This document shows positions 11,547 through 47,577 of a DNA stretch of 64,000 nucleotides, one piece after another; position 1 is the first letter of the stretch; every line of letters starts with the position of its first letter. Where the stretch lies: the NCBI GenBank assembly GCA_903813345.2, contig CAIIXF020000012.1, positions 22,952,184-23,016,183 on the forward strand. The letters are read 5' to 3'. Source of the stretch: Owenia fusiformis. Taxonomy: Eukaryota > Annelida > Polychaeta > Sabellida > Oweniidae. Made by a program: the position numbers and the translations under genes. Under the pieces are notes generated by a model that did not search any database, was not told where the DNA came from, and was given only the letters and a program-made list of their open reading frames with translations.

Positions 11547-12782
11547 TCATTCTACATAATTGCCACCATTTGCAACACATTTCTCATGTCTGGATACCCA
11601 TTCCTTGAACACAGAATTAAATCCATTAGAACTCATTCCTTGTAGGGCTAGTACTACGGCATTTTTCAATTCCTCACAGGATTGAAAATTATTTCCACTA
11701 AGGTTTCTTTTTAGTTCCCCATACAAATAAAAGTCACTGGGGGCAAGATCAGGTGAATAAGGGGCATGTTCAAGTTGTTGAAATCCAAGTGTTTGGACTG
11801 TGTTGCTGGTCAGGATTGCAGTGTGCGTAGGGGCATTGTCCCAATGCAAGATAAACTGCTGCAGATGTCCGGGACGCTTTTTCCTCAGGGAACGTTGAAG
11901 ATCACGCTTCAGAACCTGAAAAACAAATGTTTAATGGTTGTTAAACCAGTTGTTTCATTGATTGGATTTGGATTTGAATCATGGCCATGGAGTTATAATT
12001 ATATTGACAGTGAACAACATTTAAATACTTTAATTTAAAAATAAAATTCACAGTATGATGTATTATTAGAACAAATGATATCTTACCTTTGCAATGTAAA
12101 CGGCATTAATTCTCTGGCCAATGGGAACAAAATGGGTTAACACCATTCCTCTAATGTCAAAGAATGTCACAACCATTTGTTTCTTTTGTGGAATTCCTGG
12201 TACTATTTTAGGCTTGGTTGGTGTTGGGGAGTTGTCATGTTTCCACGATGAACTTTGTTGCGTGGTCTCTGGGATGTAGAATGATAGCAATGATTCGTCA
12301 CTCGTAATGATCTTGTTAAGAAAGTCATCTCCATCTCTCCGATATTTTGCAAGAAAGTCCCTTGAAGCCTTAACACGCCGGTCTTTCTGCTCCTGTGTCA
12401 AGTCATGCGGCACCCATTTAGCAGACACCTTCTTTAACAGACAGTTCTTTGTCAGTATCCGTTGCACAGTCCCATAGCTCAGATCGTGTTTTTCAGCCAA
12501 TTCTCTGATAGAAATTTGCCTATTGTCCATAACATCAGCTTCAATTGCTTTGATGGTTTGATCATCGAATGACGACACTGGCCTGCCTCCTCGCTGCTTG
12601 TCTACCACTTCATCATATCCACTGGAATACTTGTTAAACCACCTGTAAATGTTTCTCTCAGCAATGGCAGCTTTACCATATGCCTTCTTTATCTGTCTTA
12701 TAGTCTCTTTTACACCTTTCCCCAACTTTACACAGAACTTAATGTTTGTTCTTTGCTCTATTTTACTCTGACTTGGCGCCAT
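11547..12782 (-). CDS. Mariner transposase, two exons
   Basis: Cut-and-paste transposase of the mariner family. Exon 1 is 12,782-12,087 (232 codons) and exon 2 is 11,915-11,547 (122 codons plus TGA), giving 354 residues, the usual mariner size. The N-terminus carries a SETMAR-type helix-turn-helix (about residues 8-50), then a second HTH (IRELAEKHDLSYGTVQRIL). The catalytic triad is visible: Asp in ITSDES (about 162), Asp in HWDNAPTH (about 258) and Asp in LAPSDFYL, 35 residues later, i.e. DD34D. The first motif reads SDES where TGDET is usual; the Asp is kept but activity could be altered. YSPDLAPSDFY is the mariner signature. No stop or frameshift was seen apart from the intron. Confidence 0.93.
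11916..12086 (-). other. Intron inside the mariner transposase (171 bp)
   Basis: On the - strand exon 1 ends GCAAAG|GTAAGA and exon 2 begins after TTTGTTTTTCAG|GTTCTG. Both are near-consensus splice sites. Joining in phase 0 gives ..YIAK-VLKRDLQRSL.., restoring a continuous transposase. Reading through the intron meets a stop shortly after the donor. Confidence 0.88.
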
Positions 12783-13015
12783 CTTGAATTGGGTGGGTTA
12801 GTGTCCTTGGTCATGTTAGTATTTGTCATGGATGATGGAAGCAATTCAAAGAAATTGAAAGCTTTTTATGAATGCCTATTGTGACATCACAACTATTACA
12901 TATTTGTTACCATGGCAACAAATATAAAAATCATAGAAAACAAACAATGAACATTTTCAAATGTTACTGACTTTTTAAATTAGAGAAATTCACAAAAACG
13001 TTATGGTTTCTCTTC

Positions 13016-16740: not shown

Positions 16741-17077
16741 TATTGTACTGTTTATTATAGTATAACTTATATTTTCTTTTACTTATCTTTTACTTGCAGG
16801 GCATATTCCATGGTAGATTCTTCAAGAGTCTCCACATTTGTGATCTCAATACTCCTTATATTGTACTGTTTATTGTACTATAACTTGTATCTTTCTTCTA
16901 CTTGCAGGGCATATTCCATGGTAGATTCTTCAAGAGTCTCCACATTTGTGATTTCAATACTCCTTATATTGTACTGTTTATTGTACTATAACTTGTATCT
17001 TTCTTCTACTTGCAGGGCATATTCCATGGTAGATTCTTCAAGAGTCTCCACATTTGTGATCTCAATACTCCTTATAG
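16741..17077 (+). repeat. Tandem triplication of the SPPL3 exon 2 acceptor (108-bp unit)
   Basis: A unit holding the polypyrimidine tract, TTGCAG acceptor and 5' half of exon 2 occurs three times. Acceptor AGs end at 16,799, 16,907 and 17,015, exactly 108 bp apart; the first upstream tract is about 10 bp longer and more diverged. Only the third copy continues into the complete exon (IVYGSFR and donor). The unit is a multiple of three and has no stop, so each acceptor gives an open product, longer by 36 or 72 residues than the last one. Confidence 0.92.
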
Positions 17078-20000
17078 TTTATGGAAGCTTCAGGTGAGTC
17101 GTTCATCATATAATTATATTAATATTGTATTATTTTAATCAATTTAGAAAAATGAAACACTCTTTATATTAGCTTATCTTTCAATAGAATTAAGAAACAC
17201 AAGTAAATCTAAATATAAAGAATAGATGTATGTATTAAAAAATAAGAAGTATTGAATGTAAAATTGGATATGGTTTGGCTCATTACAGAGCTGCTTCAAC
17301 CTAGAAATAGACTTAAGGGTATGCTTAAAGTCAACCTCTGAACACTGGGCTCCTCCAAACATCACAGAGGGGATGATCTCTAGAGCCCTGTGTTCATTGT
17401 ATGACTTACAGTATTTTTGACAGAAAATCATTTTCTATTTCAAGATCTCCTACTTTGATCTCACAAAATATTTATATTTAACAAAACACATTTTAATACA
17501 TATAACATGTATTATTGATTTTTTTATTTTAAATTATTTTTAAACGTTAATTCTCATGATTATATTTTTTCTGAAAACATATTCAGTTATTTCCATTTCT
17601 GTGTTTTCATCTGTAGATGATCTGGGTATTATATGTTATCAGTGAGGCATGTTACTCTAAAGTGTCACAGATTAGCGTCACAGGCTACAATATACAAAAA
17701 ATATAATATAATATTGTTATGTATTCCAATGGAGAAATCAATATCAAGACTATTGGAATTCAAGAAAATTGTTTCTGATATTTTTAAGAAAGCGAAGAAG
17801 CGTAGCATTCATTCTAATATGTTTTTTTGGCCAAAAAGATTAAGAAAATTGGTTCATAAGTGAGGATTGAACTCATCCATGCATGAAAGTAGAACTGTTT
17901 TGAGGGACCAAAGGTGTTCTAAATACACTTCTTTACTTCTAGAAATTGATCTCCATGGAAACAATCCTCTTTTGTTTGTAGATCTCTTAATCTGGAGCAG
18001 GAAAACAAAGAGAAGAGCAAAGAGAAAGAAAAGGAAGCTTATACCAATGGCACAGCACAACCTGGCAGTCCTAGTGCACCAGAACAGGAACAAAGTAAGA
18101 TATTGATATTCTTTGCTCTTGTGTTCCCAAGGGGTAGGGGACCAGTGGAGGAGGGGGTCATGAACTTGCTGCCATTAGTTGTAATTCTTATCCTAGATGA
18201 CCCTAAAATACTTTATATTCAAAATATTATGTAACTGACACAACCAACAAATTTGACATAAACCTTCTTTTCTGAATAAATCAAAACTTCAAAAAAGATT
18301 CTCACCTTGGAAAGTTAGTATAACAATGATTTTTTAATAAGCATCTTAATTACGTAATGTTTCATTTCTTCTTGCAGATGTACAGACAATTGACTCATGT
18401 CAGGCAATGTTTCTGCCAATCGGGGCATCAATCTCTCTCCTCATTATGTTTTTATTCTTCGACTCACTTCAGATGGTTTTTGCCGTCTGTACAGCCAGTA
18501 AGTAAAAAACTATTTTTAGGGTTTTATGAAAAACATATAATTATGTGTTTTTAACATTTTAATCTGTCTATAGTAAATCATATTTTTGCCATCCAAAGAA
18601 ACAACCTTGTTTGTAACATATTGATTAGTATTTCATTACTTTAATCTAGATAGAGGTGAAGTATACATGTATATAGGGGTGGGGGTCACAATGTTTTGAA
18701 GCAAGACTAAAAAATAATCAATCCCATCATGGTTGAAGATCTGTCATACATAGACAACCATTGTATGATTTTCTCCTGGCACAAATACTAATGAAATATT
18801 GCATGTAAAATATGTTCGCCTTTTCAAAGTTCTAGGTTGTTCACCTTTAAATGATGAATAATTCAATGACTCCTCCACTTACTTCCATTGAGTTAAAGTT
18901 CTAGAATGAATATGTTCTTCTTCAATTAATCAATCATTGGAAGATTTCCTATACTTTGCATTTGGTTGTTTTTATAATTCTCAATCGGATGTAATATAAT
19001 TCCCACTTGTTTGCTTTTTGGGTGTGATATAATTCTCAACTGGATATAATATAATTCTCAAATGGGTGCAAAATAATTCTCAATTAAATGCAGTATAATA
19101 CTCAACTGGCAAAGTAATTCTCAACTTGGTGTGAAGTAAATTTCAACTGGGTGCAAAATTACTTCCAACTGGTTGAGGCTAAACACCCAGTCACTTCAAT
19201 GCAAATTATCCAAAAATGCCAAAATAATTTGTGCTAACATAAAACATCAGTCCAATGAAAACCTCTTTCATGATTCTTTGTTTTGTTCTTGTTATATCAA
19301 TATTCAGAGTAAAAGCATGTTGACCTTAAAAATCAATGTCATATAATTAGTTATGACTAGGTTAACTGAAAGATTAACTTATTATGTATCACAACATATC
19401 GATTTTTAACTATGCGGAACTGTGCTTTTTAATTAGAACAAATAAGCCTGCTGCGATAAAAATATTGTGTTGGTTAACCGATGAAGGATTGAATTATGAC
19501 ATCAATAAAGTTGAACTGATATTTTATATAGAGAATCATAAAAAAATGATTGTGTTGCGTCTCAGAATATTGATCACATCTTGATGATGTTATGAACATA
19601 TAAGGCATCATGGCATTTATACAATAAATTATTTCAAATGTGTATTTTTCTGATTTGGCTCATAACGAGAAAAACATCATGTCCAGCTTCAGGAAATATG
19701 GCTATGTTTATGATTGAACGGAGGGTAAAATCAATATAAGCCATTTCTTGATGATTTGATGTGCATATACTGTATAAGGATGTCATTTTAATATATACAG
19801 TATTAAGTAACTTCATGAATGTTGTAATGCAAGAAGCCCCTGTGTCCCCCAACCAACATAAATACCAAATCTAGGGAGGGAGATAAATAATAAGGGAGCG
19901 GGACTAGAGACATTATGATATAACACATTTTATATTTATTTATTTATTTTTTTGTTTCAGTTCTAGCCACAGTAGCTTTTGCGTTCCTACTCCTTCCAAT

Positions 20001-23000
20001 GTGCCAGTATTTATGTAGACCATTCGTTCACAACCAAAAGTAAGTATTAAGATTCTTTATTGTGAAACAATGTCAAACATATACAAGCATAATTCCTTGA
20101 AATTTCAACAATACATGCCAAGTACCATGACAAGTACCATGCCAAGTACCATAATAAAAGATAATAGTAATGGAGTTATCCTTGGTTTTTGATTGGGTCT
20201 CTCGTAAGAGAGGCTGTTTACATTGGATCTTATACAAGACAAAATAAGATCACAACATGCACTTTTAAAACCACCAAGTTAATAAAATGTAGTGAACCTC
20301 CTCAATTTATGTTAAAGTGTTGTAAAAACTAGTTTTATACTCCAAAGCTAGTTATATATTGGCATCAATGTACCTAGTTCCTAGGTATAGAATAGAATCT
20401 TTTCTATAATCATTTTTTCTGTATAAAAAGTTGTACAAATACAATATTGTTGAAAGAAATCATACAGTAGTTGCATATGCTATAATATCGTATTTATATA
20501 TAATATTAGCCTTATTTAGCATAGTAGTTTTGATAAAAAGAGTAAGGGAAAGGGGGGGGGGCAGGGGAAAAGGCAAGAGGGTGACTTTTTGTGATTTTCT
20601 GCTCGATGGTTTGAGCTTGGTGAGGGGGTTTTTATGTTCCCAGTGTGTATTTTACTACGTTATGAAATGTTTGAGTTTCAACCATTGCTGTTCCATAAGT
20701 TCAGGTTTTTTTCTTCTTTGGCTGATGCTTTCTTCTATTTTTTTCTCTGTTTTTAGGAAGTTTTGCCAGCCTATCATATTAGGTCTCCTTATTTTCCTTT
20801 TACATGTGTTTAGGAATATCTTTTGTTTCAGGTATAGATGTTCGTTTTCTGTTTTTCCATCTCCGAAAAGGAATTTCTCAATCGTGGGTACATCTTCGTC
20901 AAGTTGGTTGAAAGATGTTATTAGGAAGTCTTGTACGGCCTCACAATGGTATATTCCATGTTCTAAAGTATCTATGTCACTACGGCATAGACTGCATATA
21001 TCAGTGTTATAGCCGTCTATGTTCATTTGTTTTAGTTGTTTGTTATAGTATAGTATCCGGAAGAATATTTTTATTTGGAAATATTTCTCTTTTGTCCTGA
21101 GAATATTTTTTCTATTTTTGTGGATTTTGGCCCACATCAATGGATTTTGTAGTTGCAGTTTGTTTTGCCACTTATCTTCCATCTTCTTTGGCAGTTTCAC
21201 AGCATTGTTCTTTTTTAGTAAAATCTTGTAAACTTCTTTATTGTTTGTCTTTTTTAACCATTCTGTGTTAATTGTGACATTCGGATTCTCGGTTTCTTCT
21301 TCATTTTCTCTTGGGTGTCTTAATTTTCTTTTCCAATTTTGGGGGATGGCTGTAATTATACTGTTATATTTCAAAGTATTCCTTTGGTTCATAACAATAT
21401 CATATTTATGGCCTAATTCTGCTGCTGTGAGGAATCGATTTTCGTCCTGGATGTCTTTTATAAATTCAATACCTTTTTGTATCCATACTTCGTTTTTCAT
21501 GATTTCTCCATTGATTTTTATCTGTTCATTGTGCCATAATGATTGTTGCTCTGGGTTTCTCGTATCCGGAATTGTTTGATATTTTAGACTGCACCAATTT
21601 TTGTAGACTGTCTTCAGGTACCTTAAGTCTAAAACATTTATTTTGTCACTATTTTTTGAAAGGTTCAAAGCCCATACTTCTCCCTGCGTCAGGTTCTTCA
21701 GGTAGTAGTTCCATATCTTCTTCCATTTGCCACTATATGTAGGGTCTATATATTTCTTTATCCATTTGATGCTTAGGTTTTTTACGTATGATTGTAAGTG
21801 GAGCATGTTTAGGCCACCTCTCTCTTGTTCGTTCATCATTATCTTTCTTCCAATTTTGTCTGGCTTCTCATCCCATATAAAGTTGAAAAACATGTTTTCT
21901 ATTTCTTTGATAAAGTCATCTGTTGGTGTGAGCACTGTACATAGATATGTCAGCTGAGATACGAGGAGTGATTTTATCATTATTATTTTTCCTAGAGGTG
22001 TGATGTTTCTACTTTTCCATGCTCTAATAAGTCCTTGAATTTTGTTTCTTTTCTCTGGGAAATTTAAACTGTTTATGTCTCTTCCATCTAAAGGAATGGT
22101 TATACCAAGGACTTTTATATCTTTATCTTGGTATTTTAGCCCTGATGCCATGCTTTCATCTCTTACTTGTTGCTGTAATAGTGCATTTTCTCTGCCTATC
22201 ACGGCTTCTTCTGTTTTGTGGAGATTGATGTTCAGTCCTGAGATTTCTCCAAAATTTCTGAACTTTTTAATTACTTTTTTCGCGGATGCAATATTTCTTA
22301 CAAAGACTGATGTATCATCGGCGTATTGTGAGATCTTTACTTCTCCATCTGGTATTTGTATGCCTTCAATTTCTTCATCTCTTCTGATTGATTCACTCAA
22401 TATTTCGGCACATAGAATAAATAAATACGGACTTAGGGGGCATCCCTGTCGTACTCCTCTGTTCAGGTTAAAGTAGCGTGATGTATACCCGTTATTTATT
22501 ACTGAGCTTTTTGCATCATTGTATATGGTTTTGATCCATTTTCTAAAGTCTGGTCCAAAATTGAAGTAATCTAGCGTCCGATCAATAAATTTCCATTCCA
22601 CTGTGTCAAAAGCTTTTTCAAAGTCGATGAAAAGCATTATGCCAGATTCATTGTTTGATTTAAGGTGTTCCATACAGTCTATTATGAGTCTAATATTTTC
22701 TGATATATTTCTCCCTTTAATAAAACCTGTTTGGTCTTCGTTAATTATTTTTTTTAAATGGGCTTTCATTCTTTCTGCTAGACATCCTGTAATTATTTTG
22801 TAGTCTGTGTTTAGCAGTGATATTGGTCGCCAATTTAATAGGCATAGAATGTCACGGTCTTTTTTAGGTAGTTGGGTTATAATGCTTCTTTTTTGTTCGG
22901 TTGATAATTCTTCTTTATCCAATGCTTCCTTGTAGCTTTTTACCAGTATTGGCACAACTGGTTCTTGGAAACATCTATAAAATTCGCTTGTTAAGCCGTC

Positions 23001-26000
23001 GCTACCTGGTGACTTCCCGGTCTTCAGGGACTTGATCTGTGTTGTTATTTCTTCTAAGGTAATATAGCCCTCGCAGCTCTGTTTTTCCTCTTCTGTGAGA
23101 CTGGTGATTGATTTTATAGCAGGGAAGAATGTTTCTGAGTGCTGCCTAATGTTTGGGAGCCTGCTTCTGTACAGTTCTTCATAGAACCTTGCACTTTCTT
23201 TCCTTATTTGTTCAGGATCATTTAGTTCCCTGCCATCGTCTGTATTCAGTTGTGTGATGTTCTTTTTTGCAAAATTTCTTTTTTCTAACTTCAGGAAGTA
23301 ACTAGATTGTTTTTTACCTTCTTCCGCCCATCTTATTTTTGCTCGAAGTATTGCGCCCTTTGCTTTTTCATCATTCATCTCTTCTATCTCTCTTTGGAGT
23401 TGTTGTTCTTCTTCTCGTAGCTGTGTTTCATGGATGTAGTTATCTCTTAGGTTTGCCTCTATTTCTTGTAGCCGTCTTATTTTGTTGGTGATATCTAGGT
23501 GTTTTCCAGCGTTTTTTTGCTTAGAGTACCTAATGGACTCTGTTTTGATTTTGAATTTTATGAGTTCCCATAAATTTTGAGCAGTCATGTCCTTGTGCTC
23601 TTCAACCAAACCTCTGATTAGGTTTTTTATCAAAGCTACATATTCTCTATCTTCTGTTAACCTTGCATTGAATTTCCACAAACCCGGGCCACGCTCTTGA
23701 GTGCCCATCCTTAGTTGCAATTGAACAAATTGGTGGTCAGCTATTTTGTAGGATTTTGGAGTGTGAATGTCTACGTCACTGGTATTGTTGATTAGTGGAG
23801 AGGCTATAAGGAAATAATCTAGTCTGGATTTCGTAGTGGTAGCGGCATTTGACCAGGTGAAATTTCTTTTGGTAGGGTTATTTACTCTCCATATGTCCAC
23901 AAGATCATGTTCCTCCATTAGCTGCTTTATCTGCTGTCTTGTGTTTCTATGTGCATCCTGGTTGGTATTGCCTGTTTGGCTTTCTTTATCTTTGTTTGGC
24001 TCTAGGGGCACGTTGAAATCTCCTCCTATTATAATAGAATAATGATTACGCCCTTCTCTCAGTTTTTTTGCGATATTGTTGAAAAGAGTATTGTTGTCAT
24101 TGTTATGTCCATATATGTTCACTAAGGTTATTTCCTTTCCTTCTATTTTAGTATTTATTATTATGTATCTTCCATCTTCTCCGATGTCGCTGTCTTCAAT
24201 TTGGATGTCTGCCTTATGAGAGAATAGTATACCAACTCCGACTGAATTTGTGGCCCTTTCTGTAAAATATGATGTCATGCCCCATTCATTTTCCCATTGT
24301 TTTGCTTGTTTCATGCCGCAGTGGGTCTCTTGTATGAGTAGAACGTCATAATTTTCGTTCCGAGCGTGTAAGAAGAGTTTTCTTCTTTTTACCTGGTCTT
24401 GCAAGCCCCTCACATTAATGGTACCTATTTTAACCACCATCGTCCTTGTATTTGTATATAGGCCCTCTTGAAATTAGCCCTGCCCCCTTTTTTATATACA
24501 TAATAATGTCTTTTATTTGACACTTTTCTATGTTTTTAAGGCACTTAGGAAAATGCCTCATTTTTTTTTTGTAAAAAAGATAGAAATACGAAAGTTGCAA
24601 AGAATGAGAAGATTGAGGAGAAATTGACAAATCAACCTGAAAAGTTAATCGGTCAATTTTCCATCATGTGGGATTGAGACTTCCAGGGTACTCCTTGAAA
24701 ATTATTTTCTTGTGCGATTGAAACGGAGTTGAGGTTTGCTATTTAGACATTGATTGTGCTATAGGCTGTGGTTGACATTAACTCCGATACTATTTGCCTA
24801 AAAATAAATAAAAAATTGATCTAGCCTACAGTCACAGTGACCTAAAAAGGGAAACTGTTTTTTGAAAAAGCGAAGATAATTTTACCTTGAAATTGTCAGT
24901 GTTTATCCCTCTTTGTATTGTCTAGGACTGGGGGTTGAATACATGAAGCGCTAGGTAAAGCCGGCCTCTCGCGTGTTATTATCGGAAACTTCTTATGATT
25001 AGGTTGTAAAGTTGAGAAATTGCTGAAATTATTATGATTTTTGAATTTTTCTTTTCCGCTGACGTCATTGAGGAAGGTAATTCATTTTGATTGGTTGAGC
25101 CAGCGTTATGCGCGCGCAGCGTATCGATTACCTAGTAACGGCTTTATTGATAAACAAATATGTGTGTTTTTACCTTGGAAAGCTTTACTTCCTTGTTTTT
25201 GTTTCATGTTTTCAACCCCTTCGTCCTCTATTTTTGTGAAGAGAAAATATCTTAATTTACTTTCTCGATAAAACTGATAATATTAGCGTAATATAAGTTT
25301 CGGTTGGCTTATGAGGGGAGTTATTTAGTGTGGAAATTAACGGGTTTTGATACTGTATTTTTGTCTGACGGTAAAACATTTTCTCAGGGTTGTTGTCTCT
25401 TAATCGTCTTTGAGTGTGGCCCTGGGCTGCTTTTCATCCCTGTTTCTGGTCTTGCTTAGCGCTTCTGTGTAGATGGCATCCAGGTTTACTTTCTTTCCGT
25501 CGATCCATAAATGCAAGCCTGCCCATCTGTACTTTTTCTGGCCCTCTTTTGCAGGTTTAATATACGTTTTGAAGGCTTGACTTTTTATATTGCGTGCTTC
25601 TTCCGGCAGGTCTTCACCGATTTTACTGTTTATAGGTGGTTTTTTAACCCACGCCTTTGATCTGATTTGTTCAGCCGTTGGTGCATCTGCAAGTTGTACT
25701 ATCAATGGTCTAGCTTTAGTTTTAATTTGTTGTTGTTCTAAGCGTCCGATTCTGTACGCATTCAGCACCCGGACGGGACAGAGTTTTGTTAACTCAGTTT
25801 CTGCCGCTTTGATGGGAATTTCCGTCCTTTCCTCTGGAAGATCATAAATAATGACATTGTTTCTTCTGAGAGACATGTTCACTTCAATGTTTTTTATCTG
25901 TAGTTCGCGCATTCCGCCTATCAATTCCGGTCTTTTCTCCATTTTTTCTTTCAAATCCGAAAAATCGTTGTTGATTTTTTCGATCTTTTCTTCCATTTTC

Positions 26001-29000
26001 GTCGATAGCTCTCCGAAACTACCTTCCAAATTGGCTTGTAGTGTTTTTATTTCATTAAGTTCAGGCCTGAGAGCTTCTAAAAGTTCTTTAACAAGCGTAT
26101 TTCTTGAAGATTCTGCTATGTTAGTTTTTTCAGCGACTGGATTTGCCGACGCCATATTTGATTGTCCTTTGTTTACATTGTCAACCGATTCCAAATTATT
26201 TTCTTCTTTGTTTTTTGTCTCTGAAACGGCCGAAGCGTGTTGTTTTAGGAAGAATCTTGTGATTCTCCGATTGCTGTCTTTTTTTGGCAGTTTAATACCT
26301 GGTTTATTGTCCCTTTTTGGCATTTATTTAGCTTATATACGGGAGCCCCAAAAAGTCTGACTTCCCTTTATCTCCTCTCCATGGCAACCTTTTCTATAAT
26401 CATGTTTTAAACAACAATATTATTTTGTTTATTTGTTTGTTTTCAGAATGTCATTTGGTTGCTGTGGACGTTTTACACCACCTGAAATTATGGCATTCTG
26501 TTTGTCCTTCCTCCTAGTTTGTATATGGGTCCTCACCGGACATTGGCTTCTTATGGATGGTAAGAACTGTTACACTACAATCTCAACAAAATTGTTCTTC
26601 CCAAATGTTATTTGTATGCAGACGTATTTGTTTATTTTTATGTCACCCCCACAAGTGGTGACATATTGTTACAGTCTTCAACTTTTTTTGTGGACATTGC
26701 CAGTCATCAGCATTCAGTGGTTGTCATCTGTAACATCTGTAACAAATGGCAGGTGGTGACCTTTTGCATGTTAATGTCTTGTTTGTTAAACATTTACTTA
26801 ACAGAGGCAATCGATAGTTTATGAGGGCAAGGTTTAAAAGGAAATTATTAATTTCCCATGATTATACTGCGAACATATTAAACCTCCAGTTATTACCCTT
26901 TCTCTTATAAATGATAGTTTTAACAGCTGTTGATGTCATATTTTAACAAGTTAATAATATGACATTATGTTATTGATAGAAATATTGTCTAGACTATAAT
27001 ACGGAAAGTTCTATATTTAATCATGAGCTGATTGAAACGTCATAACAAGAATTGATTCATGTGAAGCCCACCTGTGCGCCAAAATTCCCAGCCACATGTC
27101 CATCAGCGCAAGTTGATGACAATATAGCGCTTTTTCAAAGGGTGATAAAAACCAGTAATGAATGTTTTTTATTATTTTGCAGCCCTTGGAATGGGATTAT
27201 GTGTCGCGTTTATAGCTCTAGTAAGACTCCCTAGTCTCAAGGTCTCAACTCTACTTCTTGTGGGACTCCTTGTATATGATGTATTCTGGGTAAGTACTCC
27301 TTTTTGATCTTCTATTTGCTGGGTAAGGACTCCCTGTGGAGCTCTCTCCATATTCTATATGGTATATCTGGGTAAGGACCTCCTTTAATCATTGCATTGC
27401 ATTATGGGTGATTAAATCCCAATCCAAATGTGTTTATTCAGCTGAGGTAATATTATAAGCAAGAATACGTGATAAATAAGATAAACAATTATGAAATAAT
27501 TTATAAATAGTTTAATTCAATATAGATGATTAGGCATATTAAAATGAAACATTTAGATATGGCAGTGACATTTAACAGATTTTATCCTGCAATTTCATTG
27601 AACTTAAATTGATCCAGGGTAACACAAAGAGACAGTATACACAAAACTATAAAATATGAATCTAAATGTAATCTCTTTAAATCTAATGATAAAATAAGCT
27701 TAGACTTGTACATTTTACAGGTGTTTTTTTCATCAATGATATTTAGCGCAAATGTAATGGTACAGGTTGCTACACGACCAGCCGATAACCCCGTGAGTGA
27801 TGCCTTATATGGTCATGCACTAGCATCAGTAGTTACTTGCGACCCTGTATTAGCTAGCCACTTACGAAAAATTGCTTATGTTTTAATTTTATTTCCCAGA
27901 AGAAACGAAATAAAGAAATGATAACATCAAAATGTGTATCAATGTTGTGAAGTCTCCCTCAGTAAAGAGTGGAGGAGTTGTCCTCCTTCCCTCTTTATAA
28001 TCTATGTCCAAAGTTTTCATACATTGAACCTAAAGACTGGGAAATGTGAAACATGAGCAGTTTTAAGCTGGTTGCTTTCCTTCATGGTTAAATCATGGTG
28101 GTGTTTTCCTTGAATCATGGTGTACATGAGGTGTTCATTTTTTATTTTTCAGGTGTTCTTTTCTTCATATATATTTAATACCAATGTAATGGTGAAAGTA
28201 GCTACAAGGCCTGCAGAAAATCCAGTAAGTTTGACCCAGGGTTAAAAATCCTACAAAGTTCACGATAGAGTTTATCAGTGAACAAAGGCTAAACGACTTT
28301 GGATGTACATGTTCACATATATAGCCTTGTCTACAGATCAGCTCTATCTGCTCCTGATCCTAAAATCCCAACTTGGGTGATACCCTCTTATCAATTCAAA
28401 TAAGATTGATCCATATATATGCATGGCTCTTATGTGGTATACTTGAAAGATATGTTCTCTTGGTGGATGGATGGGATTGATCATCTTGAGTTTCATTCAT
28501 GCATCTTTCCCTGCATCTTAGAATGTGCTTTTAAAGAGGCTTTTATAAGATCTACCTGCTATATAGTAGTTGTAATTGTATACTGCATAAAATTGGAGTA
28601 CCATTTTGTATCCTGATTGTTCAAAGAATACTTTCAATAAATACTAGCGAAGCCAATCAAAAGTAAGAAACTTCAACTATTTGTTTACACTTATTTATCT
28701 GTATGGATTTTCAGTTGCATACGTGAAGGAATTTTACAGAGAAGTATGTATATAAACATTGTCATGTATGTCTATTCTAGGTTGGTGTTTTGGCCAAGAA
28801 GCTCCACTTAACTGGGTTAGTCAGGGATGCACCCAAACTCTCCCTTCCGGGTAAACTAGTCTTTCCAAGGTACGTAAACTCAACTTAACTGAATAAACTA
28901 AAACTAATATTTTTACTGTGCCACCTCTCCTCTTCCTCAAAAAGTCAGAATATCTGAGAAACACCCTGTTGTTTTACCATTTTTTAATTTTGGGGAATTT

Positions 29001-30299
29001 ACTTATATGCTTACTTACAGTATGTAGAATAACAAAACAAAATTTTACATCCTCCCCTATTGTGTAATTATCATATTTGAATATCATTATATTGACATGT
29101 TCCCCATAGTCAGAATATCTCTTATTTGGCAATAGTAAATACTAATAAGTTCAACTTTTGTGCTTTTAGTATGCAGAACAGTGGACACTTTTCCATGTTG
29201 GGCTTAGGAGATATCGTCATGCCGGGACTACTTTTATGTTTTGTCTTACGTTATGACGCGTACAGGAAGACACAGTTTGTCATTGATAGTGGCCTACCAC
29301 CACCTGCAACGTATTATAACCGAATCACATACTTCCATTGCTCATTGCTAGGATATTTCCTTGGTAAGTTTGTGGAGAAATAACCTCAAATCTATTGTAA
29401 ATTAGAACAGGAATTAGCAACGAATGGTCATGGTTTATGCTGAACAAAACTCAAAGTTTTGAATTTCTTAGAAAATTATTCTGCTCCTCATCACCTCTGG
29501 AAGAACTTGGAGAAAGAAGATGAAATGTTTTATTATAATGCAGGAAACTCATATTTCAGTCTTTTAGAGAGAGAAATATCTCCTTTTTGAATATTCACTA
29601 AAGTACAGGGAGGCAACGTCGTCCTTTTAGGTAATTGTCGGACACTCAATGCAGGACTACCTTTTGTCCGACAATTGCCTACATGGACGACATTGCCTCC
29701 CTGTCCTGTATTACAGTATTACAGTATAATGAAAAGAGAGGAATCAGCAAAATATACTTTTAGTTCAAAAGCATCCTTTTAGTTAGAGAAATGGTTTCTG
29801 TATTTGTAGGGTTGTTAACAGCTACCGTATCATCAGAAGTGTTCAAAGCAGCCCAGCCTGCTTTGTTGTATCTTGTGCCATTCACACTATTGCCCCTCTT
29901 TACAATGGCATATCTTAAGGTAAGACCCTCATATCTTGTGCCATTCACACTATTGCCCCTCTTTACAATGGCATATCTTAAGGTAAGACCCTCATATCTT
30001 GTGCAATTCACAAGTTTCATTAATATATAATAATATGAAGTAAGAGAATCATTTTTCAAACTGTTTTTCATTCAAAATATTTGCACTGTCAAAAAGTCTC
30101 AATAACAAGGATAGGTTGTCCAGCATTAAAATTTTTTTTTAGTATTTTACTATTTCTCCAAAATTCAGGTGATTAATACAAAAGTTTTGATGAAACAATG
30201 AATTTTAATAAACTGATTGTTTTTTTTCAGGGAGATTTGAGGCGAATGTGGTTTGAACCATTTGAAGCCACTAAACCTCCCAAATATGTGGATGTCTGA
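17016..30299 (+). CDS. SPPL3: Signal peptide peptidase-like 3 (GxGD intramembrane aspartyl protease)
   Basis: Polytopic Golgi/ER protease. Vertebrate SPPL3 sheds type II membrane proteins, notably glycosyltransferases. Coding exons: 17016-17093, 17982-18094, 18378-18497, 19961-20039, 26447-26559, 27183-27289, one of 27721-27792 / 28153-28224, 28781-28869, 29170-29363, 29810-29919, 30231-30299 (TGA). All joins are GT-AG and in frame, giving 380 residues from AYS onward; human SPPL3 is 384 in total. Diagnostic segments are [25 protein letters not shown], the catalytic VYDVFW, the catalytic [15 protein letters not shown], the PALLYLVP (PAL) motif and GDLRRMW. The acidic/Lys-rich loop after SFR is the variable region of the family. 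The first coding exon (MAEQTYSW in vertebrates) was not located. Intron 5 carries a LINE in antisense. Identity is near certain from length, motifs and colinearity. Confidence 0.96.
18975..19180. repeat. Degenerate ~30-bp minisatellite in SPPL3 intron 4
   Basis: Repeated ATAATTCTCAACTGG-GTGYAATAT-like units with many substitutions and indels; roughly seven units. Non-coding. Confidence 0.75.
20399..20413. repeat. Target-site duplication, 3' side of LINE
   Basis: CTTTTCTATAATCAT, identical to 26,389-26,403. It flanks the T-run that marks the LINE 3' tail. Confidence 0.92.
20655..24440 (-). CDS. LINE ORF2: APE endonuclease and reverse transcriptase
   Basis: 1261 residues with no stop. It nicks target DNA and reverse-transcribes the element RNA (target-primed reverse transcription). 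The N-terminal APE-type endonuclease (about 1-245) shows [19 protein letters not shown] and IADHQFV motifs. The reverse transcriptase (about 480-780) shows [26 protein letters not shown] (near 607), [14 protein letters not shown] and [10 protein letters not shown] (near 707; catalytic YADD). The C-terminus carries CSLC-x-HGIYHC (near 1145-1166), the cysteine motif common in L1-group ORF2 proteins. The start at 24,440 ([14 protein letters not shown]) matches the usual endonuclease opening. Confidence 0.95.
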   Translation of the reverse strand: MVVKIGTINVRGLQDQVKRRKLFLHARNENYDVLLIQETHCGMKQAKQWENEWGMTSYFTERATNSVGVGILFSHKADIQIEDSDIGEDGRYIIINTKIEGKEITLVNIYGHNNDNNTLFNNIAKKLREGRNHYSIIIGGDFNVPLEPNKDKESQTGNTNQDAHRNTRQQIKQLMEEHDLVDIWRVNNPTKRNFTWSNAATTTKSRLDYFLIASPLINNTSDVDIHTPKSYKIADHQFVQLQLRMGTQERGPGLWKFNARLTEDREYVALIKNLIRGLVEEHKDMTAQNLWELIKFKIKTESIRYSKQKNAGKHLDITNKIRRLQEIEANLRDNYIHETQLREEEQQLQREIEEMNDEKAKGAILRAKIRWAEEGKKQSSYFLKLEKRNFAKKNITQLNTDDGRELNDPEQIRKESARFYEELYRSRLPNIRQHSETFFPAIKSITSLTEEEKQSCEGYITLEEITTQIKSLKTGKSPGSDGLTSEFYRCFQEPVVPILVKSYKEALDKEELSTEQKRSIITQLPKKDRDILCLLNWRPISLLNTDYKIITGCLAERMKAHLKKIINEDQTGFIKGRNISENIRLIIDCMEHLKSNNESGIMLFIDFEKAFDTVEWKFIDRTLDYFNFGPDFRKWIKTIYNDAKSSVINNGYTSRYFNLNRGVRQGCPLSPYLFILCAEILSESIRRDEEIEGIQIPDGEVKISQYADDTSVFVRNIASAKKVIKKFRNFGEISGLNINLHKTEEAVIGRENALLQQQVRDESMASGLKYQDKDIKVLGITIPLDGRDINSLNFPEKRNKIQGLIRAWKSRNITPLGKIIMIKSLLVSQLTYLCTVLTPTDDFIKEIENMFFNFIWDEKPDKIGRKIMMNEQERGGLNMLHLQSYVKNLSIKWIKKYIDPTYSGKWKKIWNYYLKNLTQGEVWALNLSKNSDKINVLDLRYLKTVYKNWCSLKYQTIPDTRNPEQQSLWHNEQIKINGEIMKNEVWIQKGIEFIKDIQDENRFLTAAELGHKYDIVMNQRNTLKYNSIITAIPQNWKRKLRHPRENEEETENPNVTINTEWLKKTNNKEVYKILLKKNNAVKLPKKMEDKWQNKLQLQNPLMWAKIHKNRKNILRTKEKYFQIKIFFRILYYNKQLKQMNIDGYNTDICSLCRSDIDTLEHGIYHCEAVQDFLITSFNQLDEDVPTIEKFLFGDGKTENEHLYLKQKIFLNTCKRKIRRPNMIGWQNFLKTEKKIEESISQRRKKPELMEQQWLKLKHFIT
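24441..25399 (-). other. Unusually long inter-ORF spacer of the LINE
   Basis: 959 nt between the ORF1 stop and the ORF2 start, without a credible ORF. It holds a perfect CRE palindrome TGACGTCA at 25,060-25,067, an ATTGG (inverted CCAAT) near 25,089 and a GCGCGC run near 25,111, which together look promoter-like. L1-group spacers are usually tens of bases or less. Confidence 0.7.
25400..26323 (-). CDS. LINE ORF1: coiled-coil / RRM RNA-binding protein
   Basis: 307 residues. L1-type ORF1 proteins trimerise through a coiled coil and coat the element RNA. Here a basic Ser/Asn-rich N-terminus (to about 90) leads into a heptad-rich stretch (about 95-145, [18 protein letters not shown] onward). An RRM-like part follows, with [14 protein letters not shown] (about 155-168) as its first strand, then [10 protein letters not shown] and [11 protein letters not shown] basic C-terminal domain follows ([13 protein letters not shown]). 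No zinc knuckle was seen. It starts about 65 nt from the 5' end of the element. Confidence 0.88.
   Translation of the reverse strand: MPKRDNKPGIKLPKKDSNRRITRFFLKQHASAVSETKNKEENNLESVDNVNKGQSNMASANPVAEKTNIAESSRNTLVKELLEALRPELNEIKTLQANLEGSFGELSTKMEEKIEKINNDFSDLKEKMEKRPELIGGMRELQIKNIEVNMSLRRNNVIIYDLPEERTEIPIKAAETELTKLCPVRVLNAYRIGRLEQQQIKTKARPLIVQLADAPTAEQIRSKAWVKKPPINSKIGEDLPEEARNIKSQAFKTYIKPAKEGQKKYRWAGLHLWIDGKKVNLDAIYTEALSKTRNRDEKQPRATLKDD
26389..26403. repeat. Target-site duplication, 5' side of LINE
   Basis: CTTTTCTATAATCAT, identical to 20,399-20,413; it lies about 40 bp before SPPL3 exon 6. Confidence 0.92.
26636..26757. repeat. Hairpin-headed dispersed repeat, copy 2
   Basis: Head TGTCACCCCCACAAGTGGTGACA then TATTGTTACAGTC, ending AACAAATGGCAGGTG; homologous to 14,076-14,187. 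It lies in SPPL3 intron 6. Confidence 0.7.
27721..27792 (+). CDS. SPPL3: SPPL3 duplicated exon 8, copy a
   Basis: 72 nt, phase 0, after acceptor TTTTACAG and before donor GTGAGT. It encodes [20 protein letters not shown] plus ADNP, the segment directly after the catalytic VYDVFW of exon 7. It differs from copy b at 5 of 24 residues (Met/Tyr, Ser/Asn, Ala/Thr, Gln/Lys, Asp/Glu). Copy b is closer to human SPPL3, so a is the derived form. Skipping, swapping or including both all keep frame. Mutually exclusive use is inferred, not shown. Confidence 0.85.
28153..28224 (+). CDS. SPPL3: SPPL3 duplicated exon 8, copy b
   Basis: 72 nt, phase 0, acceptor TTTTTCAG, donor GTAAGT, 360 bp downstream of copy a. 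It encodes [20 protein letters not shown] plus AENP. The Tyr, Asn and Lys positions match the vertebrate SPPL3 pattern, so this is probably the ancestral exon. Confidence 0.92.
29604..29710. repeat. Foldback element in SPPL3 intron 10
   Basis: A near-perfect hairpin. The left arm GGGAGGCAACGTCGTCC, then TTAGGTAATTGTCGGACA, pairs with the right arm TGTCCGACAATTGCCTA, then GGACGACATTGCCTCCC. Arms are about 40 bp and the loop about 15-20 bp. Probably a small palindromic MITE. Confidence 0.85.
29869..30007 (+). repeat. Tandem duplication of the SPPL3 exon 11 donor (63-bp unit)
   Basis: A 63-bp unit covering the end of exon 11 ([17 protein letters not shown]) and its donor is duplicated at 29,869 and 29,932, with a third stub at 29,995. 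Donors follow 29,919 and 29,982 with identical AAG|GTAAGACCC context. Using the second donor adds 21 residues in frame, a second copy of the last hydrophobic segment. Confidence 0.93.
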
Positions 30300-31320
30300 C
30301 CTCACCCCCTTTACAGGAGTTAAAGACCATAATACAATGACCTTGACCTTCTAGCCCATACAGCTGTGTCTGATCATTAGGTCATCACATGTTATCACCA
30401 TATACGGTGTGTGGACAATGGATTAATACCAAATATGGGAGTGACATATCAGAGCCATATATGGTTGGGTAGTCATAGCAAACATTGGGTGGTTTCCAAA
30501 TAAGGACAAGGGATACTCTAGATCTGAATATAGGATAATACATCTAGATAATGTTACTTTTTAATGAACAATGAAATTTTGGATAATTTTGCCAGAATTC
30601 CTGGATCTTGACAGTAAAAATGAAAAACTGAATCTGGGCAGTGAATTGTGTTGAAAATTAAAAATGGAAGGAAATATCGATAGCAGCAAATCTTGAAAAT
30701 ATGGAAATTTGAAACATCATATCTCTAAGAAATGTATTTTGGAAAGACTTGGAAAAGGATTTGACATCCTGAATACCTCTGAAGCTAAATAGCCTATACA
30801 GTAAATGAAAAACCAAATTATGAATAATCCAGGATTCTGGGATACAGTGTACCTTGGTGTGTGGTCATATTTAAAAATGCAAAATATGATAAAAAAATTA
30901 ACAAGATTTTTACAGTTTAGCCTGAATAATTGTAAGAAAACTGTGTTCATAAATTGAGACCAAAAAGCAGGACCACTAATCACATGGGATGGCCACTAAA
31001 AACAAGAAATGGCCACTTAAAACAACAAAGAATTTCCAAATTGATACACAGCCTCAAGAACTGCATCAATATGAGGTAAAACACTTCATTTACACAGGAG
31101 GAGATTACCCAGAATGCTTACCTTATTTTTGGAGACAAGAAAGTTTTGAACCAATCACAGTTTTGGATTATCTCGAATTGTTTTTTCAAAATCTACCCAT
31201 TAAGTCCCCAAAGAGTGAGGCAAGGCTTCTATTTTATTAGATTGAGGCAAAATAGTGGGGAGCAAATTAGAATTCAGTAGTTTGCCTCAATATAACAGCC
31301 AATTAAGCACTATTGGTACG

Positions 31321-31938
31321 TTTTCTCATGCCAGTGAATGTGACATGTTTTCTCATGCCAGTGAATGTGACATGTTTTCTTGTGGCAGGGAATGTGACAT
31401 GTTTTCTCATGCCAGTGAATGTGACATGTTTTCTCATGCCAGTGAATGTGACATGTTTTCTCATGCCAGTGAATGTGACATGTTTTCTTGTGGCAGGGAA
31501 TGTGACATGTTTTCTCATGGCAGGGAATGTGACATGTTTTCTCATGGCAGGGAATGTGACATGTTTTCTCATGCCAGGGAATGTGACATGTTTTCTCATG
31601 GCAGGGAATGTGACATGTTTTCTCGTGGCAGGGAATGTGACATGTTTTCTCGTGGCAGGGAATGTGACATGTTTTCTCGTGGCAGGGAATGTGACATGTT
31701 TTCTCGTGGCAGTGAATGTGACATGTTTTCTCATGCCAGTGAATGTGACATGTTTTCTCATGCCAGTGAATGTGACATGTTTTCTCATGGCAGTGAATGT
31801 GACATGTTTTCTCATGCCAGTGAATGTGACATGTTTTCTCATGGCAGTGAATGTGACATGTTTTCTCATGCCAGTGAATGTGACATGTTTTCTCGTGGCA
31901 GGGAATGTGACATGTTTTCTCGTGGCAGGGAATGTGAC
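31321..31938. repeat. 27-bp minisatellite, about 23 copies
   Basis: Unit TTTTCTCATGCCAGTGAATG plus TGACATG. Variants concentrate at the centre (ATGCCAGT, ATGGCAGG, GTGGCAGG). The period is divisible by three and stop-free, so several frames are open by arithmetic alone; this is not evidence of coding. It lies 1 kb after the SPPL3 stop and may be within its 3' UTR. Confidence 0.97.
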
Positions 31939-41887: not shown

Positions 41888-44143
41888 CTATTTGAAATGA
41901 TAGTTTTGTTCTTTAAAAGGATCATTGATGGGTGTTTGTTCTCCAATTGGTGTTGGTTCACCAATGGGTATTTGTTCACTAATGGTCGTTTGTTCTTCAA
42001 TGGGTGACTGTTCTCCAATGGGCATTTGCTCACTAATTGGTGTTTGTTCTCCAATAGGCACTTGTTCATTAATGGGCATTTTTTCATCAATGGGTATTTG
42101 CTTACTGATGGGCATTTGTTCAATGATTGGCTTTTGTTCTCCAATAGGTGTTTGTTCTTCAATGGGCATTTGTTCACCAATGGGCATTTGTTCACCAATG
42201 GGCTTTTGTTCATCAACTGGGGTTTGTTCTCCCATGGGTTTTTGTTCACCAATAGGAGCTTGTTCATCAATGAGTATTTTAGGGGAGGCAAGGGTTGGGC
42301 TTGTTATCTTCACAACAGGGACAGGGGGTAGAGTATCCTCTGTATGTTCAACGTAATGTAAAGAAGGTGTAGGGGAGGGGCTCTGGAGGGCAGGGTTTTC
42401 TTTAGGAGGTGATAGCACACTGTCAGGACTAGGTTCATTAACAGGGACTTCTTTATCAGGAATTAAATCTTTGGGGTCCTCAGAAGGGACAGAAGATAGG
42501 GTCAGAGGGGGTTTATCTTTTGAAGGGTTGGGAGAGGGAGGGGGTACACCAATGGAAGAGTGGGGATACTGAGAGGAAGTGGGTCCGTCCTCAGTTGGAA
42601 CACCATTGGGAGTTGGGCCATTACCATATTGAGGATTATTTTCTGACAAAAGGGGCGTTCTTTCATTCGGAGGGATATCATCAATTTCTCTCGTGCTGCC
42701 CCTGGAAAATGCATCATCAGGAATATTCCTTCGTAAGAACAAGAGAATTGCTGATACAATCACCATCAAGCTCCCTATAATGATCATCGCAATTTGAGCA
42801 ACAAAACTTAGCAATTTTGGATTCAGGAGCTGCATTTGGACTTTTGCAGCACTTGCATCGTCAATGACAGTAGATTCATTGATCCAAGCCACTGGGAAGA
42901 CCATTGTTTGAATGTTGCCTGTTTGAAGGACTGAATCAACTTTTTGCAGATATATATTAATCTGAAGTCGTTTGAATGCCTTCATAATGAACCCTGTGTT
43001 AGGTTCAGCACAAACATCAGTTCGATGCTGTATGCCTGGGTGCATGTTATAGATGGCGTCCTTGTACTTTGAATCAGCCATATAAAAGTGTGGGTACGAT
43101 ACAACAAGTGGGATATGGAATCTATCGATGATTTGACAGGTACTGATATTGAGTACACCTGTACCCATACAATGATCAGGAGGTGTGCAGAACCCTTTAT
43201 TCAATGGTTCAATGGTTGCGTTAGCTAGTTCACGATAGGGGCCTGTATAGCGATATAAAGGAATACCCTGTGGTGTGACATCATCCGCTTCATAGAGGCC
43301 AATCACACTGCGACAAATATCTGATGAAAACATACCAACGATTCTGTCACGATTTAAAAATGGCGGCCCTATAGATCCATCTGTGCCATTAATTTGATCA
43401 GCAAGTGATGTGGTCCAATAAGGCACTGAGCTCATTCCATTGTACTTATCTATAACACCAAGGAACTGAATATCATTTTCGCCAGTTTGGACTGTATATA
43501 GTCCATCATCTGTGTTATTTTTCCCAGCTCGAATCCCGACCATATCTTGAGTGAACCAACTAGGATCAACAACCTTTGCAGCTGCTAGGCCTTTATCCTT
43601 ATATCCCCAGACCATGTCTTTAACAGATTTCCTCACAAATAGCTCCTCTGTAAATAATCCAAGTGCAACTGTTGCAGCATCTCGTACAATTGCTGGGGAA
43701 TTTACCACTGCAGTTGCAAGTGTTGCTAGGGGGATATTCACTGTCAGAAACGTCTCGTTATCCAGTCCAACAGACATCTCCGGGACAAAATTATAACTAA
43801 ATATCTGTCTATAGGAAACTGTTCCATTTTGATTAAATGTAATATTTACTTTATGACGGTGTTCTCTGTATGTGTAGGGGCCACGTTCTACAACATAGGG
43901 TTTCTCCCCTTGCATCACCTCAGCTGGGTTTTTCAAATCAAATGTCCAAAATTGGAGATAAATAGGTGGCGCTGGATTCCTCCATTGTTCGTAACCTTGG
44001 GTACCATTTTTGAGTATCACATTATTGATGATCTGTTGACGGATTATGAGATGAAGGACGGGAATTGATATCAAACCAATTGCCAGGATGATGGAGCCCA
44101 CGATTAAACAGATCCATGTTGTACGCCTGCTGCAATTTAACAT
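41888..44143 (-). CDS. CD36/SCARB-family scavenger receptor, LIMP-2-like, with extended repetitive tail
   Basis: 751 residues in a single coding exon. CD36-family proteins are two-pass receptors with a large luminal/extracellular lipid- or enzyme-binding domain. TM1 is at about 9-33. The ectodomain (about 34-445) has family hallmarks: NGTQGYEQW, RGPYTYRE, VWGYKD, ICRSVIGLYE, GFCTPPDHCMGTGVLNIS, SYPHFYMAD, MHPGIQH, RLQINIYLQ and TMVFPVAWINES, plus several NxS/T sites. TM2 is at about 447-472. The cytosolic tail starts RRNIPDD and contains ERTPLL (about 491-497), a [DE]xxxL[LI] lysosomal sorting signal like that of LIMP-2. A Pro/Ser-rich part and ~20 hexapeptide repeats follow. Usual family length is 470-510, so the tail adds about 250 residues. 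Vertebrate relatives have about a dozen exons; one coding exon suggests retroposition or intron loss. Confidence 0.93.
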   Translation of the reverse strand: MLNCSRRTTWICLIVGSIILAIGLISIPVLHLIIRQQIINNVILKNGTQGYEQWRNPAPPIYLQFWTFDLKNPAEVMQGEKPYVVERGPYTYREHRHKVNITFNQNGTVSYRQIFSYNFVPEMSVGLDNETFLTVNIPLATLATAVVNSPAIVRDAATVALGLFTEELFVRKSVKDMVWGYKDKGLAAAKVVDPSWFTQDMVGIRAGKNNTDDGLYTVQTGENDIQFLGVIDKYNGMSSVPYWTTSLADQINGTDGSIGPPFLNRDRIVGMFSSDICRSVIGLYEADDVTPQGIPLYRYTGPYRELANATIEPLNKGFCTPPDHCMGTGVLNISTCQIIDRFHIPLVVSYPHFYMADSKYKDAIYNMHPGIQHRTDVCAEPNTGFIMKAFKRLQINIYLQKVDSVLQTGNIQTMVFPVAWINESTVIDDASAAKVQMQLLNPKLLSFVAQIAMIIIGSLMVIVSAILLFLRRNIPDDAFSRGSTREIDDIPPNERTPLLSENNPQYGNGPTPNGVPTEDGPTSSQYPHSSIGVPPPSPNPSKDKPPLTLSSVPSEDPKDLIPDKEVPVNEPSPDSVLSPPKENPALQSPSPTPSLHYVEHTEDTLPPVPVVKITSPTLASPKILIDEQAPIGEQKPMGEQTPVDEQKPIGEQMPIGEQMPIEEQTPIGEQKPIIEQMPISKQIPIDEKMPINEQVPIGEQTPISEQMPIGEQSPIEEQTTISEQIPIGEPTPIGEQTPINDPFKEQNYHFK
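41905..42270 (-). repeat. 18-bp coding repeat encoding IGEQxP hexapeptides
   Basis: About 20 degenerate 18-bp units in frame. On the - strand they encode IGEQTP, IGEQMP, IEEQTP, ISEQMP and similar, covering about residues 625-746 of the SCARB-family tail. The repeat is acidic and proline-spaced; one unit carries Lys for Glu (ISKQIP). Confidence 0.93.
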
Positions 44144-44162
44144 TGTCCCAAGATGTAGTCTG
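44144..44162 (-). other. Candidate 5' UTR splice acceptor of the SCARB-family gene
   Basis: On the - strand TTCTAATTTCAG|ACTACATC precedes the ATG by 16 nt. This implies a non-coding upstream exon, so the 30-bp minisatellite beyond it would lie in a 5' intron or the promoter region. Confidence 0.45.
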
Positions 44163-44291
44163 AAATTAGAACATACTTATTACTTATTTAGGAAATGTGA
44201 CATATGTTTAGCTCCAAAACAGCAAATAATAATATTCCAAATTCCAAGATAAGACAAGGCATTACATGCAAAATGTCACAACAGCTGTCAA

Positions 44292-46373: not shown

Positions 46374-47577
46374 CCACACACCAAACACTGACCACCAATC
46401 ACCGAATACCAGCCATAAAAAAAGTTGGAGACTATATGTCAACACTTCTGACATTATGGTGACAGAAAAACATGTCATTATTCTCTTTACACACCTGTTT
46501 TTCATCATACATTAGAAATATAATTCTAGGCATTGAAATTGTAAGTCTCTCAAACCTAAAACATTCTCTTCTCTGAAATTTTATTTTCATGTCACATAAC
46601 TCATTCAAGTCCGAGCCCCAGGCGGTCATAACTTCAGTGTTAGACAATCTGTCTAATATACATTGTTTTATGTTGTAAATAATCCTGAAAATGGTTACTG
46701 CTCTTAACTGATAAATGTGACTTGCAAAAGTTGTCAAATCAACACATTCTTACCCCCTGGTCAATTTTTAGGGGGTAACTAAATAACAATAACTTTTTAC
46801 CATAACTTTGAATGGAGCAAGAGAAGTTTTCACCCAAAGCCTGGAGGAGCTGTATAGCTTTAACTATAACTTTGTCACCTTAACAAAGGCTGGTAAAGTC
46901 AAGATTATACGATTTGGAGATTATTAACTTCCAGATGAATGTAACAAAGAAATTCTCAATTTATCAGCAAACTTTATTGACAAAGTTATGCACCATTCAA
47001 AAGTTTGCGTTAGACCCCCCCCACGCAGGGACCGGAGGGTAAGGGATTTGATACACAATATTGTCCCAAGTGGTAAGAATTTGACAAAGATTGTCTTCAC
47101 GGGGGTGAGGAATTTGATTTACATGTGCCTGGGTATGGGGATTTTTGACTGAATCTGTTTCGTCCAGTATACACTTTAGGAATAATACTGAGCAGTTTTT
47201 CTAGAATAATACTGAGCAGTGTCGTAGCAGATTTATTGCTCCAAGGGTAGGGAAATTGACACATTTATTTGGCCATATTGTAGAACTGACAAATCGTTTA
47301 AAATTCCTAATTTTAAACAAGGAGTCCCAATTATAAAGATTTTCAAATTTAGACATGGAAACACTTTACACTTAGCGGGTTGATTTGAAACTAATTTTCT
47401 GGCTACTCGAGTCCATAAAAACTCTGATAGTGCGAGTCTTTTTATGAACATAATGTTTCTAATAGAAATCATTTGACGATTATGAGAAAGCATTAAGTCA
47501 AATCCAAAGTGGAATCTGAAATAAAAGTGAAAAAATATTGCACGGATGTGAAAGAACAAACTTCTGGTTTAATAAAA
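46374..47577. other. No recognisable gene
   Basis: Region between the minisatellite and the candidate exon at 47,578. Short runs only, such as a C-run near 47,013. It may hold the 5' non-coding exon and promoter of the - strand SCARB gene. Confidence 0.4.

Follow-up and report, generated by a model that had tools for sequence, protein, structure and literature searches.

An old tandem duplication of the exon following the catalytic aspartate in an invertebrate SPPL3-like gene

Within a 64-kb window of DNA (the whole stretch analysed here, 33.9% GC), an SPPL3-like protease gene encodes the segment directly after the catalytic aspartate of its YD motif twice, by two adjacent homologous exons of equal length and phase that share the same flanking exons 7 and 9. 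We denote these exons 8a and 8b. This arrangement raises the questions of whether both copies are functional, whether only one of them enters each mRNA, and what the exchange of one copy for the other would do to the protease. The original prediction, made from the same DNA, regarded the two copies as probable mutually exclusive exons.

The gene was delineated with a human SPPL3 sequence as a probe, which placed all 11 exons (2–12) in order on a single strand (Table 1). Probe hits of ≤22 bits were dropped; exon 3 (E 0.48) and exon 12 (E 0.011) were matched only weakly, and a hit on a repeat of exon 2 (E 0.64) was rejected as spurious. Exon 1 was not located in the 64-kb window. Intron structure and gene content suggest that the DNA is from an animal. 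With 8b included, the joined exons 2–12 are translated into 380 residues with no internal stop, and the translation carries VYDVFW in exon 7, GLGDIVMPG in exon 10 and PAL in exon 11. The part encoded by exons 7–10 matches Peptidase_A22B (PF04258) with either copy, at E 3.1e-44 (152.2 bits) for 8b and at a nearly equal E 6.7e-43 (147.8 bits) for 8a. SPPL2A is a distant match only to the gene product. Based on the SPPL3 probe and the SPPL2A alignment, the gene was assigned to the SPPL3 type rather than to SPP or SPPL2, and we call it SPPL3-like. Nothing reached the gathering score in an Rfam scan. Sequence patterns for exon 8 and for the GxGD region of exon 10 had no match in collections of bacterial, archaeal and viral contigs, and tblastn with the exon 7–10 protein had no hit among plasmids and phages; these collections have no bearing on animals.

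Table 1. Positions of the SPPL3-like gene and of the exons around the duplicated pair
Feature	Description	Position	Strand	Basis or remark
SPPL3-like gene	exons 2–12	17016-30299	+	human SPPL3 probe; boundaries corrected to AG/GT
Exon 7	ends with VYDVFW (YD motif catalytic Asp, TM6); donor TGG/GTAAGT	27183-27289	+	human SPPL3 match
Exon 8a	72 nt, phase 0-0; acceptor TTTTACAG, donor CCC/GTGAGT	27721-27792	+	
Intron between 8a and 8b	360 nt; closest AG 5′ of the 8b acceptor at −24	27793-28152	+	
Exon 8b	72 nt, phase 0-0; acceptor TTTTTCAG, donor CCA/GTAAGT; probable default copy	28153-28224	+	
Exon 9	one copy found	28781-28869	+	
Exon 10	GLGD (second catalytic Asp); one copy found	29170-29363	+	
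Exon 11	PAL motif	29810-29919	+	PAL is a family mark in the available text of PMC13252537 and PMC3306293

Exons 8a and 8b are identical at 52 of 72 nt and at 19 of 24 residues. As the runner-up ungapped match to either exon on both strands of the 64 kb reaches only 38/72, the similarity of the pair is far beyond chance, and chance resemblance was rejected. A third copy of exon 8 was not found by six-frame tblastn of the window, where the next hit had 18.1 bits compared with 42.4 for the pair. With the human probe, exons 7, 9 and 10 are present as single copies; we take exon 8 of human SPPL3 itself to be single. When the pair was extended by a repeat finder, the match ended at the splice sites (27712-27798 with 28144-28230). 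The coordinates, the 72-nt length, phase 0-0, the AG/GT borders and the five residue differences that had been proposed for the two exons match ours exactly, and the proposed flanks, with exon 7 ending at 27289 and exon 9 starting at 28781, are also correct. Differing residues (8b/8a) are Y/M at position 6, N/S at position 9, T/A at position 10 and K/Q at position 15, and position 22 differs by D and E, with D in 8a. Compared with human SPPL3, 8b has the same residue at 20 of 24 positions and 8a at 18. Among the differing positions, the human residue is found in 8b at Y6, N9 and K15 and in 8a at D22, and in neither copy at position 10. Thus, the statement that copy b matches the vertebrate pattern is right for three of the five differing positions, but fails at position 22, where 8a has the human residue, and at position 10.

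The substitution pattern of the pair is that of protein-coding exons under constraint: 14 of the 20 base differences between 8a and 8b are at third codon positions, and 9 of the 14 changed codons are changed silently. In a codon model with F3x4 frequencies taken from the gene (8b included), omega = 1 was rejected at kappa 1, 2 and 3 (2dlnL 29.8, 30.1 and 31.2, respectively), with an upper 95% profile limit for omega of ∼0.06 on a coarse grid; this is a pairwise test on 24 codons, in which dS and omega are imprecise and not branch-specific. The maximum likelihood estimate of the synonymous distance went to infinity, i.e. synonymous sites are saturated. In the profile likelihood, the 1.92-unit interval excludes t = 2 but includes t = 3, so that the two branches together amount to at least ∼2 neutral substitutions per nt. 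Moreover, the introns beside 8a and 8b are no more alike than shuffled sequences (85/200 shuffles reach the score upstream and 179/200 downstream); since the flanking introns no longer align, the duplication should be old.

Neutral decay of an unconstrained copy was simulated with 4000 runs per setting, using copy b as a stand-in for the ancestor and leaving out gene conversion. With 0.10 substitutions per nt, a proportion of 0.43 of the simulated copies kept the frame and AG/GT and had no more than five altered residues; the proportion fell to 0.05 with 0.20 and to 0.003 with 0.30. If equal rates on the two branches are assumed, these simulations suggest, very roughly, that 8a lost its constraint, if at all, no earlier than in about the last fifth of its history. 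The dN/dS comparison by which the original prediction proposed to judge the two copies finds purifying selection on the pair in the pairwise omega test, together with a limit on neutral decay for 8a. Judging by the substitution pattern, the open frame and the intact splice sites, selection for protein function has acted on both copies, and by these signs the pair is an old retained tandem duplicate, not a long-decaying relic.

What the swapped segment does can be considered with human SPP as a reference. According to the available text of a 2026 preprint (PMC13252537), substrate binding brings order to residues 228–235 of human SPP, which then form an amphipathic helix, AMPH1. The substrate helix is surrounded by AMPH1 and helices 2, 3, 5 and 7, and the cleavage region of the substrate, which is unwound, packs between TM6, TM7 and AMPH1. 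Splice forms of this segment are not mentioned in that text. The same text describes a YDxxxV motif with V223, at which V223A causes a strong defect, and a conserved A233 in AMPH1, at which A233L and A233M have no detectable effect and A233V has a mild one (PMC13252537). With structural placement taken from this preprint and from the SPPL2A sequence alignment, exon 8 spans the counterparts of V223 and of residues 228–235, with the alanine of A233 kept. Because exon 8 covers the AMPH1 counterpart, an effect of a swap on the active-site surroundings is better founded than it was when first proposed. From the SPP sequence, we take V223 to correspond to position 1 of exon 8, AMPH1 to positions 12–19 and A233 to position 17.

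V1, the N-V-M-V run and A17 are kept in both 8a and 8b. Positions 6, 9 and 10 differ ahead of AMPH1, and position 15 (K/Q) is the sole differing position within it. The stretch from V223 to AMPH1 is about six residues longer in SPPL3 than in SPP, and position 6 (Y/M) falls within it. The one match among PDB sequences, the SPPL2A chain of 9k92, aligns over the segment with E at position 15 and A at position 17; it has a single stretch here, about two residues longer than one exon copy, up to the conserved alanine. As substitutions of A233 are tolerated in human SPP, the swaps between 8a and 8b may matter little. SPPL3 sheds Golgi glycosyltransferases and thereby affects glycan patterns (available text of PMC9722940), so that isoform-specific shedding would be a natural prediction.

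Splice sites of the two copies were compared by using approximate weight matrices. The acceptor score is 12.1 for 8b and 8.6 for 8a (9th of 12 scored), the donor score is 7.6 for 8b and 7.4 for 8a (10th of 11 scored), and the donor fits the U1 consensus at 8/11 positions in 8b and at 6/11 in 8a. All site scores of 8a and 8b are inside the range of the other sites of the gene. Hence the 'good splice sites' ascribed to the pair hold for both copies, with the qualification that the acceptor and donor of 8a are on the weak side. Due to its stronger acceptor and more SPPL3-like sequence, 8b is probably the default copy, and 8a would be the regulated choice. On the + strand of the window, the donor-like octamer TGGGTAAG has exactly three occurrences, 27287 (the real exon 7 donor), 27320 and 27369, which form a cluster at 27287-27376. 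The extra sites are 33 and 82 nt downstream of the exon 7 donor, and each, if used, would add five residues and then a stop. They are possible decoy donors, and the cluster may bear on the choice between 8a and 8b.

Mechanisms that enforce mutual exclusion are known from human exon clusters. In the available text of PMC5740500, splice-site incompatibility accounts for 0.79% of clusters, branch point proximity for 9% and non-3n length for 60%, and only a handful of human clusters lie beyond splicing restrictions, NMD or folding constraints. The intron between 8a and 8b, at 360 nt, gives no sign of a steric limit, for which it would have to be too short or to have a branch point within ∼50 nt of the upstream donor. 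OGDH exons 4a/4b (available text of PMC7969005), likewise a homologous exon pair in an enzyme gene that alters a regulatory segment, are made exclusive via distant branch points in a short intron, which in human lie 25–41 nt past the 4a donor. In the present gene, the AG closest to 8b on its 5′ side is at −24, and this speaks against a branch point as remote as the 8a donor. Both exons are a multiple of three in length, so joint inclusion or skipping keeps the frame and carries no NMD penalty. No U2/U12 clash was found either, as every site is GT-AG with U2-like donor motifs.

Base pairing between introns gave no sign of a competition of the docking/selector type. For the best gapless helices between the three introns (23.0, 22.5 and 24.5), 159, 192 and 143 of 200 shuffles were as good in this one sequence, and gapless intron-intron complementarity was below the shuffle mean. 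In duplex folding of whole introns, 92, 23 and 66 of 100 shuffles were as low, a comparison that chained entire introns and so says little; local folds around the four splice sites gave z from −1.0 to +1.1. As no enforcer was seen, exclusion, if real, would come from trans-acting factors, from structure that a single sequence does not reveal, or from removal of double forms that misfold. Following the statement on unexplained clusters in the available text of PMC5740500, exclusion here would rest on folding constraints or regulators. Strict mutual exclusion of 8a and 8b is thus unproven: the original prediction of probable mutually exclusive exons is partly supported, as the pair is a true old tandem duplicate with signs of selection on both copies, but none of the four exclusion mechanisms could be demonstrated.

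These results also suit a different use of the pair, in which some or all mRNAs contain both 8a and 8b, so that the lumenal TM6–TM7 loop gains 24 residues and a second AMPH1-like segment, or in which 8a is a plain cassette. Two exons of 72 nt with phase 0-0 can be joined in frame, and neither a pairing nor a steric barrier was found around a 360-nt intron with ordinary sites. Such joint or cassette use is nevertheless rather improbable in our estimation: both copies are homologous to one conserved position by the catalytic Asp that is occupied in SPPL2A by a single stretch, and doubling would lengthen the connection from TM6 to the TM7 side of the active site by 24 residues. It would also leave unexplained why each copy keeps the full SPPL3 pattern. 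Another possibility is that 8a worked for long as an alternative exon and became a relic only recently, being now silent or rarely spliced while 8b alone is used. When human SPPL3 serves as an outgroup, four of the residue changes can be assigned to one copy or the other, and three of these fall to 8a; the weaker acceptor of 8a and the fewer U1 matches at its donor point in the same direction. We consider this unlikely, since 8a still has its open frame, its AG and GT, the YDxxxV valine and the alanine of AMPH1, and the simulations permit at most ∼0.2 neutral substitutions per nt.

AT-rich invertebrate genomes are often heterozygous, and two haplotypes or the exon of a paralogue might be falsely placed side by side in the assembly. 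Other tandem repeats of the gene (108 nt in three copies at 16776-17099 and 63 nt in two copies at 29869-29994) reflect either local duplication or assembly trouble. However, 8a and 8b differ at 20 of 72 bases, their synonymous sites are saturated and their flanking introns do not align, and haplotypes would not be so divergent while exons 7 and 9 are single-copy. Haplotype or assembly duplication was rejected as too divergent, and an artefact of this kind is hardly credible.

We regard it as probable that exon 8 was duplicated long ago and that both copies were kept as functional alternative exons, with 8b as the default and 8a as a regulated copy that retunes substrate gating. Following an ancient tandem duplication of exon 8 in an invertebrate SPPL3 gene, we infer that normally one of 8a and 8b would be spliced between exons 7 and 9 of the mRNA, and that either choice would give a complete catalytic protease. 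The 24 swapped residues would comprise the YDxxxV valine after the catalytic Asp, the lumenal end of TM6 and the AMPH1 equivalent. In our model, three changes ahead of the helix (Y-to-M, N-to-S, T-to-A) and one inside it (K-to-Q) would alter the admission or holding of type II membrane substrates, and the SPPL3 substrates concerned would be Golgi glycosyltransferases. More tentatively, and with odds that we put somewhat below even, a tissue- or stage-dependent switch between 8a and 8b would swap the AMPH1 segment and yield isoforms that shed different sets of glycosyltransferases, shifting the glycans of the cell, with the donor cluster maybe a part of this switch. Substrate choice by GxGD proteases is still poorly understood, and a long-selected exon pair would offer a ready-made natural experiment. 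The kept changes (Y/M, N/S, T/A, K/Q and D/E) point to positions that may tune gating while catalysis is spared; if the splicing is regulated, it would be a new means of controlling SPPL3.

Tandem duplicated exons are a known class (available text of PMC9741552 and PMC9013439), and in human tandem exon pairs functional residues are retained and other changes are mostly conservative (available text of PMC9741552). The pair described here has in common with tandem duplicated and mutually exclusive exons, as characterized in the parts available of PMC9741552 and PMC5740500, the adjacent homologous exons of equal length and same phase, the kept functional residues and the mild changes; membrane proteins are common in that class. 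Unlike the mutually exclusive class, 8a and 8b are without a steric intron limit, a non-3n length or a U2/U12 clash. By word searches, SPPL, presenilin and HM13 are absent from the main text of PMC5740500, and SPPL and presenilin are absent from the main text of PMC9741552. Drosophila sppL (CG17370; available text of PMC3306293) shares Peptidase_A22B, the YD, GLGD and PAL region and the SPPL3-type segment after YD with the present gene. It is described there with six coding exons, C1–C6, from which two proteins are predicted, one 417 and the other 422 residues long, and these unequal lengths do not fit an equal-length exon swap. Among the matches listed from the open-access literature, judged mostly by titles and abstract openings, we found no description of an exon pair like 8a/8b in SPPL3 or another GxGD protease, in agreement with the original prediction, which knew of no such pair for SPPL3. 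Hence 8a and 8b appear to be tandem duplicated exons, a known kind, in a protein family for which we know of none.

Several further features were observed in the window. In the three-copy repeat at 16776-17099 (+ strand), exon 2 (TM1) is preceded by two tandem 108-nt copies, each with an acceptor TTGCAG and lacking the 3′ end of the exon and its donor. The copies share one open frame with exon 2, and splicing to one of the upstream acceptors would give in-frame repeats of TM1, adding 36 or 72 residues. At the other end of the gene, a perfect 63-nt tandem repeat (29869-29994, + strand) duplicates the last part of exon 11 together with the donor GTAAGA, and use of the second donor would add 21 residues in frame; this repeat is either very recent or an assembly matter. 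A LINE lies antisense in intron 5 of the SPPL3-like gene (20655-26323, − strand), with two ORFs that measure 307 aa and 1272 aa from stop to stop; endonuclease and reverse transcriptase domains are in the 1272-aa ORF. A second LINE (50430-54161, − strand) has a 1094-aa endonuclease/reverse transcriptase ORF, as found by domain scanning, followed by a stop and a 148-aa ORF. A Mariner-type transposase extends over two ORFs (11547-12797, − strand), with HTH_48 and Transposase_1 in the 12069-12797 piece. Just past the SPPL3-like gene, a 27-nt unit is arrayed in about 23 copies (31320-31938). Further on, a CD36-family gene (41888-44176, − strand; PF01130, E 3.2e-132) is one open frame of 762 aa from stop to stop whose C-terminal tail is made of ∼6-residue repeats, and adjoining the gene, about 69 copies of a 30-nt unit (44292-46374) carry long open stretches on both strands.
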